Virus record (IMG/VR): IMGVR_UViG_3300044715_000274 | Coordinates: 1 to 36,531 of that record | Source: a virus | Length of the DNA stretch: 36,531 nt | Strand: one strand, 5' to 3' | In this document: piece by piece, positions 31,062 to 32,200 of the stretch | Layout: each line of letters starts with the position of its first letter | Numbering within the stretch: position 1 is the stretch's first letter | Made by a program: the position numbers and the translations under genes | The notes under the pieces: generated by a model | What the model saw: the letters and a program-made list of their open reading frames with translations, nothing else | The model's database searches: none | What the model was told of the DNA's origin: nothing

Positions 31062-31308
31062 AAAATTAGGAAGAGAGCAAGCTCATGGCATTGCCGAGAG
31101 CGATGGGATTATTTATTTGGATCCGCGTTTGCGCGGAAAAAAGCATTTGGAAATTTTGCTCCATGAACTCGGACACCTATTGGATGCCAAAGATTCGGAG
31201 GAGACTGTCATTAAAAAATCAGTAGCATATACAAAGATTCTTTGGCAAGAGGGTTATCGCCGTATCGATGATACGAACGATACACCATTACAGGATGGCA
31301 CAAATTAA
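31039..31308 (+). CDS. Small HELGH zinc-peptidase-like protein
   Basis: This 89-aa protein starts at GTG (KIKIIYKKLGREQAHGIAES). A metal-binding helix HLEILLHELGHLLDAK carries the HExxH motif. No third ligand is obvious in the remaining sequence. It may be a peptidase or a remnant scaffold. It overlaps the previous gene by 23 bases. From memory, similar small proteins occur in Bacteroidetes phages. Confidence 0.6.
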   Translation: MKIKIIYKKLGREQAHGIAESDGIIYLDPRLRGKKHLEILLHELGHLLDAKDSEETVIKKSVAYTKILWQEGYRRIDDTNDTPLQDGTN

Positions 31309-31315
31309 TCAAAAC

Positions 31316-32200
31316 ATGACACATGGATCACTTTTCAGCGGCATAGGAGGATTTGATCTTGCGGCCGAATGGATGGGATGGGATAATGTATTTCATTGCG
31401 AATGGAATCCCTTTGGTCAAAAGGTACTTAAACATCATTTTCCAAATTCAATTAGTTACAATGACATCACAAAAACAGACTTCTCTATTCACGAAGGAAG
31501 TATTGATATCCTTACAGGAGGATTTCCTTGTCAACCATACTCAAGCGCCGGTAAGCGACTTGGGAAAGCCGATGAGCGACATCTCTTTCCGGAAATGTTA
31601 CGATGCATTAAAGAGGTCAAACCGAGATACATCGTGGGCGAGAATGTTCGTGGACTCGTTAGTTGGGGGGGGGGGGTGGTATTCAACGAGGTGTGCGATG
31701 ACTTGGAAAGGGAAGGCTATGCAGTACAACCGTTTCTTATTCCTGCTGCAAGTGTCGGCGCACCGCACCAAAGACAAAGGATATGGTTTGTTGCCAACTC
31801 CAATGGCATCGGAAGGGGACAAGATGACCGGATCAATAACGGAGAATCAAATGAGTTTAACAAAGATGGTGAGACAAGGGATGTTACCAACTCCGGATGC
31901 TCAAGATTGGAATTCGGGAACAAAACCGGAAACATACGAAGCGAGAAAACAAAAACACAAATTGAAGGGGGTAAATTTACATATGAGTTTAAGACAAATG
32001 GCAATGGGAGTTGGCAAGACTTCCCAACTGTCTCCCCTGTTTGTGGGGGAAATGATGGGCTTCCCCGAGAATTGGACAACATCACCTTTCCTAAATGGAG
32101 AAAAGAATCAATCAAAGCTTACGGAAACGCCATAGTGCCTCAAGTAGCTTATCAAATTTTTAAAGCAATATGCAACTCCGAGACTATCAAATCGACATAG
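31316..32200 (+). CDS. DNA (cytosine-5) methyltransferase
   Basis: From ATG 31316 the product is 294 aa; earlier in-frame starts at 31268 and 31295 would overlap the previous gene. Motifs in order: I GSLFSGIGGFDLA, IV GGFPCQPYS with the catalytic Cys72, VI ENVRGL, VIII QRQRIWFVA, and X AYGNAIVPQVA. It methylates cytosine in phage or host DNA, probably against restriction. The region between motifs VIII and IX is polar and low in conservation-like features, where a target-recognition domain should be. A G12 run (31665-31676) lies just after motif VI. A second frame is open through 31353-32135. Confidence 0.9.
   Translation: MTHGSLFSGIGGFDLAAEWMGWDNVFHCEWNPFGQKVLKHHFPNSISYNDITKTDFSIHEGSIDILTGGFPCQPYSSAGKRLGKADERHLFPEMLRCIKEVKPRYIVGENVRGLVSWGGGVVFNEVCDDLEREGYAVQPFLIPAASVGAPHQRQRIWFVANSNGIGRGQDDRINNGESNEFNKDGETRDVTNSGCSRLEFGNKTGNIRSEKTKTQIEGGKFTYEFKTNGNGSWQDFPTVSPVCGGNDGLPRELDNITFPKWRKESIKAYGNAIVPQVAYQIFKAICNSETIKST
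31353..32135 (+). CDS. Overlapping alternate-frame protein inside the methyltransferase gene
   Basis: In the +1 frame relative to the methyltransferase, 260 codons are open without a stop. The peptide is protein-like: QTSLFTKEVLISLQEDF, SWARMFVDSLV, GWYSTRCAMTWKGKAMQYNR, two LPTP motifs (LLPTPMASE, MLPTPDAQDW), and LSPLFVGEMMGFPENWT. I recall proteins with these motifs from Bacteroidetes phages, but cannot check. The start codon is uncertain. The overlap covers the catalytic and target-recognition parts of the enzyme. It may be a true second gene or a frame kept open by constraint. Confidence 0.5.
   Translation: MILRPNGWDGIMYFIANGIPLVKRYLNIIFQIQLVTMTSQKQTSLFTKEVLISLQEDFLVNHTQAPVSDLGKPMSDISFRKCYDALKRSNRDTSWARMFVDSLVGGGGWYSTRCAMTWKGKAMQYNRFLFLLQVSAHRTKDKGYGLLPTPMASEGDKMTGSITENQMSLTKMVRQGMLPTPDAQDWNSGTKPETYEARKQKHKLKGVNLHMSLRQMAMGVGKTSQLSPLFVGEMMGFPENWTTSPFLNGEKNQSKLTETP
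31665..31676 (+). repeat. Twelve-G homopolymer
   Basis: Twelve consecutive G within an AT-rich gene. It encodes Gly residues in both the methyltransferase frame (SWGGGVV) and the overlapping frame (VGGGGWY). Slippage to 11 G would join the methyltransferase N-terminus to the overlapping frame. Slippage to 13 would enter the third frame. Confidence 0.9.

Follow-up and report, generated by a model that had tools for sequence, protein, structure and literature searches.

Organization of the locus

The window analysed here is the whole 36,531-nucleotide stretch of IMG/VR virus record IMGVR_UViG_3300044715_000274. In the ORF listing, a methyltransferase open reading frame (ORF) spans 31268-32200 and is overlapped by a +1 ORF that is open at 31353-32135; both frames are open as the initial annotation had claimed. 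The protein of the methyltransferase frame is termed alpha and that of the +1 frame beta, and their features are collected in Table 1. Alpha matches Pfam PF00145 (E=8.3e-48) and also PHROG 363. The hallmarks of PF00145, which are motifs I, IV (PCQ), VI (ENV), VIII (QxRxR) and X in the usual numbering, were found in the alpha frame, and the LPTP motifs and LSPLFVGEMMGFPENWT were read in the +1 frame, in both respects as described before. ATG 31316 is the likely start of alpha because the alignment upstream of this codon consists mostly of gaps.

In the AlphaFold model of alpha (43 sequences), residues 1-165 are mostly confident, residues 166-270 have pLDDT values below 50 and residues 271-294 are again confident. 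The motif X region forms a helix (273-293) in a block with pLDDT values of 82-94. Foldseek aligned this model best with M.HhaI over about 165-170 columns; M.HaeIII followed at rank 10. The small domain, comprising the target-recognition domain (TRD) and motif IX, appears to be absent from the alpha chain, in which the shadow is neutral and predicted to be disordered. The apparent TRD of alpha is most likely a shadow linker en route to motif X.

The neighbours of the methyltransferase gene resemble a phage replication module, with an exonuclease, a DNA polymerase exonuclease subunit, a small metalloprotease-like ORF and then a helicase. A PHROGs scan gave no restriction enzyme match among 10 window proteins; the gene is therefore probably that of an orphan phage methyltransferase.

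Table 1. Features of the alpha and beta frames, in window coordinates.
Feature	Position	Strand	Basis
Alpha, C5-cytosine methyltransferase, putative large subunit, 294 aa	31316..32200	+	PF00145, PHROG 363, aligned-block start
Alpha motif I, FSGIGGFDLAA	31334..31366	+	translation; columns invariant or nearly so in alignment A3
5' portion of the +1 ORF as first described, probably untranslated as beta	31353..31460	+	beta ratio, stop at 31428
Beta, putative +1-frame protein, 224 aa, with LPTP cassettes and motif IX-like segment	31461..32135	+	PHROG 1008, conserved ATG, selection ratios
Alpha motif IV with catalytic PCQ, GGFPCQPYS	31517..31543	+	translation; G68-S76 invariant in alignment A3
Alpha motif VI, ENV	31640..31648	+	translation; E109, N110 and V111 invariant in alignment A3
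Poly-G tract of 12 G in the overlap, encoding runs of Gly in either frame	31665..31676	+	letters, translations
Alpha motif VIII, HQRQRIWFVA, overlapped by the beta N-terminal region	31766..31795	+	translation; constraint in both frames
Beta cassette 1, LLPTPMASEG...	31788..31880	+	module cluster 1, type seen 35 times
Alpha shadow linker, open, without amino-acid constraint	31796..32005	+	selection ratios; pLDDT<50
Beta cassette 2, MLPTPDAQDWNSG..., last LPTP to IX-like segment	31881..32018	+	motif pattern, module clustering
Beta motif IX-like segment, TSQLSPLFVGEMMGFPENWTTSP	32019..32087	+	invariant residues, hhalign to L174
Alpha motif X, YGNAIVPQVA	32120..32149	+	translation; G270, N271, A272, V274, P275 and Q276 invariant in alignment A3

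Length and conservation of the two open frames

The length of the +1 ORF was compared with a null in which the synonymous codons of the methyltransferase were shuffled 300 times per locus. Of 112 distinct ORFs, 99 loci were tested, the remainder being too short, too long or with ambiguous bases. The +1 ORF was longer than every shuffle in 95 of these loci and was reached by 1-3 shuffles in the other four. For the window, 262 codons were observed against a null mean of 81 and a null maximum of 165, so the length lies beyond chance as the initial annotation had argued, with the caveat that two of six single-chain control methyltransferases (L178 and L179) likewise exceed the null. In the same shuffles the third frame stayed at chance level (median 35, null mean 41). 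ORF length was rejected as sole proof on account of these controls and is used as support only; selection by frame is the stronger proof because the length null is imperfectly specific. The two controls are standard single-chain loci of Streptococcus phages, whose +1 ORF lengths were reached by 0 and 1 of 300 shuffles, respectively. The +1 ORF of L178 (1652-2146) has a weak beta-profile match over the I-VIII region, away from the TRD/IX part.

Openness was also followed in the opposite direction, from beta. Among 243 distinct nested loci, beta-synonymous shuffles predict 1122 alpha-frame stops in the shadow and none is observed; for the third frame, 2423 stops are observed and 2413 expected. 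An open alpha is part of the definition of the nested class; this condition is dropped in a further count of the 254 distinct loci with motif IX in the +1 frame and motif X in frame 0, of which 250 have no alpha stop. The simplest reason for a stop-free alpha is that ribosomes read it across the shadow up to motif X.

Alpha-frame stops occur in the remaining four loci (L010, L159, L249 and L261). In L010 (3634), L249 (549, 993) and L261 (3477, 3975) the stops are TGA and beta is intact. These three loci have TGA at a conserved Trp ahead of motif X, and L249 and L261 have a second TGA upstream. The codons may be recoded or read through, or alpha may have lost its C-terminus.

Selection in each frame

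Each difference was classed as synonymous or non-synonymous per frame (dNN/dSN). The first set comprised 96 aligned loci of the 112 distinct ORFs, after exclusion of L090 and of sequences with <200 or >500 codons, ambiguous bases or no N-terminus. The second started from 251 distinct nested sequences, among which the window possibly occurs twice (as itself and as L170), and 66 disjoint pairs were formed from them.

The ratios of the 66 pairs change along the gene. Over motifs I-IV, alpha is at 0.15 and beta at 0.83 (0.73-0.97); this region lies mostly outside beta, so values slightly below 1 may be bias and small departures are not over-read. The stretch that follows (roughly 31556-31645) gives 0.16 for alpha and 0.64 (0.52-0.80) for beta, a weaker constraint. 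Over motifs VI-VIII, the last 150 nt of the N-terminal domain, the values are 0.20 for alpha and 0.38 (0.32-0.44) for beta. From motif VIII to motif IX, alpha rises to 1.37 (1.22-1.59) and beta falls to 0.20 (0.18-0.22), and at motif IX they are 0.50 and 0.24, respectively. Both proteins are clearly constrained at about 31640-31795 and 32006-32130, and in the VIII-IX interval beta only. The same picture is seen in the 96-locus, window-like alignment, in which the alpha shadow linker has ratios of 1.36 (0.97-1.93) and 1.79 (0.96-4.0). Entropy by codon position agrees, with the sequence from motif VIII to motif IX constrained in the +1 frame and unconstrained in the methyltransferase frame.

Purifying selection is not confined to the methyltransferase frame, and the conservation of the double coding that had been surmised from similar peptides of other Bacteroidetes phages is confirmed by this selection on beta and by the openness of alpha. 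Since the VIII-IX interval is constrained in beta and shows no constraint in alpha, the TRD and motif IX are most likely part of beta.

Start and extent of beta

The initial annotation had the second frame running from 31353. The frame is open from there, as stated, but beta probably does not start at that point; it is best read from ATG 31461 to 32135 (224 aa), with TTG 31353 disfavoured as a start. Among the 96 aligned loci, the beta ratio at 31353-31460 is indistinguishable from 1 (0.69, CI 0.35-1.6), 73 have a beta-frame stop at 31428 and 83 have an ATG at 31461. Where the alpha codon that forms this ATG encodes Asn, it is AAT in 82 of 82 loci, which are related and hence give non-independent events; elsewhere in alpha AAT is used for 827 of 1708 Asn codons. 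A Shine-Dalgarno match of at least 5 nt precedes the beta start in 8 of 15 Bacillota-type loci, compared with 7.1% of 678 start-like control codons, and a match of at least 4 nt in 13 of 15, compared with 21%; the control codons were taken from the same genes, and the start codon of each locus was picked after inspection of the data. No obvious Shine-Dalgarno sequence was seen at the beta ATG of the window itself. The record of Paenibacillus phage Bloom annotates both nested genes (BLOOM_56 and BLOOM_57), and its beta start is the one derived here.

The window beta matches PHROG 1008, labelled 'DNA methyltransferase' (E=3e-22), as do 51 of 51 betas of alignment A1. Pfam gave no recognised domain on the +1 frame, just a sub-threshold EFR3 match, and no HNH. 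The beta profile had no matches to PDB sequences up to E 10, and the single +1 sequence had 14 weak immunoglobulin matches (best E 0.29). AlphaFold modelled beta alone poorly (43 sequences; pLDDT 51.6, pTM 0.23), so this model lends no support to a fold.

The motif IX-like segment

The C-terminal segment of beta follows the pattern L-x-P-x-F-V-x-x-M-M-G-F-P-x-x-W-T, with M199, G200, P202 and W205 invariant in 51 sequences. It stands at the motif IX position and reads like motif IX; compare LTPRECWRLQGFPDW in L178. The segment resembles the matching part of a single-chain enzyme, that of Mycobacterium phage Shauna1 (gp67, L174): hhalign aligned 23 columns at the IX position (probability 93.8%, E 1.7e-7), and the beta profile matches Shauna1 at the LPTP/IX region (E 7.4e-7). 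Against four standard single-chain methyltransferases the hhalign match was weak (probability 1.5%, E 0.035), and the motif IX segment was aligned. By position, pattern and similarity to L174, the segment is most likely motif IX.

Shauna1 gp67 resembles the window locus in carrying motifs I-VIII, three LPTP segments, MMGWPAGWVT at the IX position and motif X. It differs in that everything lies in one frame of a single chain. A third layout is found in the actinophage loci Upyo, Camperdownii, Vash, miche and Shivanishola, in which, by eye from the translations, the LPTP region, the IX position and motif X lie in the +1 ORF. Nested, tandem and single-chain loci thus form an architecture series. 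Short IX/X profiles found no motif IX in 6 of 21 phage-record loci, including three tandem forms, and mostly missed the tandem splits. In Gordonia phage Shivanishola (L181, 1555-2941), motif VIII starts in frame 0 and ends (VFILAHPAD) in the +1 frame, possibly at a frameshift site or through a mutation.

LPTP cassettes

The 242 distinct betas, in which the window is possibly counted twice, contain 0-5 LPTP-type motifs each (none in 9 and 1-5 in 233). The motifs are spaced by a median of 39 aa (quartiles 33-43, n=271). Clustering of 268 modules of at least 20 aa gave 69 clusters, several of which recur at different positions. Loci whose catalytic domains are 98-100% identical have different module strings; these were defined with a strict motif pattern and an identity cut-off of 55%, and some differences may represent missed motifs. 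The window and L090 are 93% identical upstream, and L090 has an additional 348 nt (116 codons) in the cassette region. Beta would accordingly be built of exchangeable cassettes of about 39 aa, which may set the target sequence.

The poly-G tract

The poly-G tract was considered as a phase-variation switch, a proposal that was rejected because the run is not conserved across the family: 10 or 12 G are present in 10 of 88 parsed loci and 3-5 G in 75. The run can be explained by the genetic code: where both frames need Gly at neighbouring codons, G is forced at every position. Two nearly identical contigs from metagenome 3300042892 have shorter runs, of 11 G in L090 and of 10 G in L015, where the contig end is close by. 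In L090 the alpha N-half is fused to the beta C-half in one frame. These length variants could reflect slippage, assembly error or real variation or switching.

Distribution and annotation of the nested form

A tblastn search with the +1 protein found 18 phage records. A scan of IMG/VR gave 136 encoding stretches among 150 pattern matches, and 80 were kept. When the fetched loci were sorted by the frames of motifs I-VIII, IX and X, 323 of 339 were nested (+1), a count that includes duplicate contigs and the window as L170. Genomes were scanned with a pattern derived from the IX segment of beta, and the best 80 of 261 relatives were sorted. Of these, 76 are nested with alpha, two have an alpha-frame TGA (L249 and L261), L256 is frame-broken, and L251 begins inside beta at a contig edge. 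The pattern is an MGFP-type motif, so types other than MGFP would be missed.

The nested loci carry the labels Bacteroidota, Bacillota, Thermodesulfobacteriota and Candidatus Parcubacteria, and include phages of Mycobacterium, Klebsiella and Escherichia; many of the bacterial-labelled loci may be prophages. The initial annotation had mentioned similar peptides in other Bacteroidetes phages. Such peptides do exist in Bacteroides and Porphyromonas phages, and they occur outside these phages as well. A tree of 36 rows places 28 nested rows behind one starred branch, and in the same tree Royals2015, a mycobacteriophage with the nested form, clusters at weak support (88/55) with tandem and single-chain loci of actinophages.

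Public records annotate the nested genes as methyltransferase or hypothetical protein. The 11 annotated nested phage records that were fetched carry alpha only in eight cases, beta only in one (Porphyromonas phage018a), beta and an N-terminal methyltransferase piece in one (KT997847) and both genes in one (Bloom). C72C1 and R23.9 annotate alpha only (record set L003, L008, L004, L005 and L007, including Bloom). No account of the nested phage family was found in the titles or abstracts of the open-licence PMC literature, and it may be in print elsewhere; the accessible portions of PMC3439449, PMC4574080, PMC10885494, PMC12707154, PMC8008677, PMC5723332, PMC5009743 and PMC8227390 do not describe it.

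Comparison with known systems

The multispecific C5 methyltransferases of Bacillus phages (SPR, phi3T and rho11s) are single chains with tandem TRD modules of roughly 40 aa. The LPTP modules, which are tandem with a median spacing of 39 aa, recall these modules and may serve as TRDs. They differ from the Bacillus phage modules in lying in a separate nested subunit and in being stop-free in two frames. To our knowledge, enzyme halves from one DNA stretch in two frames are rare among double-stranded DNA phages and bacteria. One such enzyme may be M.EcoHK31I, which recognises YGGCCR. Its small subunit is reported, in work attributed to Lee et al. in 1995, to be encoded within the large-subunit gene in another reading frame, and in this feature it is like the nested (+1) loci found here.

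M.EcoHK31I consists of two polypeptides, the large subunit with motifs I-VIII and X and the small subunit with motif IX, and its predicted TRD is placed in the large subunit (PMC3404938). Compared by this layout, the window locus is alike in having motifs I-VIII and X in one chain and motif IX in the other. It is unlike M.EcoHK31I in that alpha is unconstrained between motifs VIII and IX and selection points to a TRD in beta. EcoHK31I is moreover listed as a Type II restriction-modification system (PMC6456624), whereas the window gene lies among phage replication genes. M.AquI also has two chains, the second of which carries the distal variable region and motif IX, and also motif X (PMC3404938). 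The window locus shares the two chains and the placing of the variable region and motif IX in the second; in contrast, its motif X is in alpha, and beta stops before the end of motif X. The actinophage tandem splits look AquI-like by translation reading. ShiLan-type hidden HNH elements, which PMC11855218 describes as mobile homing-endonuclease insertions out of frame in phage methylase genes, are similar in placing an out-of-frame second protein inside a phage methylase gene. Unlike them, beta lacks an HNH match, and its counterpart is enzyme sequence. Two EcoHK31I-like plasmid candidates (L340 and L341) were set aside; they adjoin NgoMIV-type endonucleases and have an ordinary motif IX in one chain.

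Discussion

The locus very probably encodes a two-subunit split C5-cytosine methyltransferase from overlapping frames, in which alpha has the core and motif X and beta has the TRD and motif IX. Alpha would supply the core that binds AdoMet and carries out catalysis (motifs I-VIII) together with motif X, and between the core and motif X it would cross a linker that is stop-free and otherwise unconstrained. Beta, starting at its own ATG, would supply the small domain, composed of the LPTP-cassette target-recognition region and motif IX. Translated from overlapping frames of one message, the two proteins would pair into a complete enzyme whose mark on phage DNA most likely protects it from host restriction. 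M.EcoHK31I is a precedent showing that an enzyme can work when divided in this way (PMC3404938). The initial annotation had proposed a second protein that is possibly a specificity partner or a counter-defence protein. We infer the former from the conserved double coding, the cassettes and the IX-like segment in the +1 frame, and it also fits the neutral 'TRD' of alpha and the conserved internal start with a Shine-Dalgarno sequence in Bacillota-type relatives. The counter-defence guess is not needed; a phage orphan methyltransferase is plausibly anti-restriction itself.

An improbable alternative is programmed ribosomal frameshifting, by which ribosomes would slip +1 after motifs I-VIII to yield a single chain of I-VIII, TRD and IX, with motif X coming from ordinary alpha. 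The overlap of the frames over motifs VI-VIII is where such a switch would fall, L090 (11 G, not 12) joins the two halves in one frame, and motif VIII of Shivanishola ends in the +1 frame. The conserved internal ATG, the invariant AAT and the Shine-Dalgarno enrichment all argue for a separate start instead. The beta-frame constraint is moreover present already over motifs VI-VIII, the poly-G run is unconserved in the family, and alpha is kept open through to motif X.

An independent accessory protein, that is, a counter-defence protein or regulator overprinted on the methyltransferase gene without being a subunit, is very improbable. The lack of a recognised Pfam domain in beta, which matches mainly PHROG 1008, is consistent with it. 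However, beta occurs with alpha (76 nested among the best 80 of 261 genome loci), single-chain Shauna1 has an LPTP region and IX segment of comparable kind within its enzyme chain, and alpha has no constrained TRD of its own. We give hardly any credence to a +1 frame that shadows the methyltransferase by decay or chance and owes its openness to composition. The two single-chain controls with a +1 ORF longer than the shuffle null fit that explanation, and the beta-profile match over motif VIII, which is similar in L172, L174 and L178, could partly be alpha shadow. It is contradicted by the purifying selection between motifs VIII and IX in the +1 frame only (0.20 versus 1.37), and the third frame is at chance level.

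The nested arrangement is deep, occurring in phages and bacteria of several phyla. The locus is a clean case of a frame in which openness is the sole constraint, and it offers a natural experiment on overlapping genes. The breadth of the nested form, the TRD in beta, the alpha linker under openness only and the cassette-built beta look new. Any specificity deduced from the alpha frame of nested genes would rest on unconstrained sequence. We are evenly divided on a broader proposal, in which a widespread phage and prophage class keeps its specificity in a nested +1 subunit and beta is multispecific, recombining and made of exchangeable cassettes, each about 39 aa long. A cassette would then code for protein in one frame and serve as stop-free filler in the other. 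Exchange of such doubly open cassettes would leave the catalytic frame intact and let phages alter their target sequences or combine several of them. The cassettes suggest a route to rapid change of phage methylation targets, which is relevant to keeping up with host restriction.

Elsewhere in the window, gene direction and GC skew flip at about 28000, with a long minus-strand block to the left and the plus-strand replication genes to the right.
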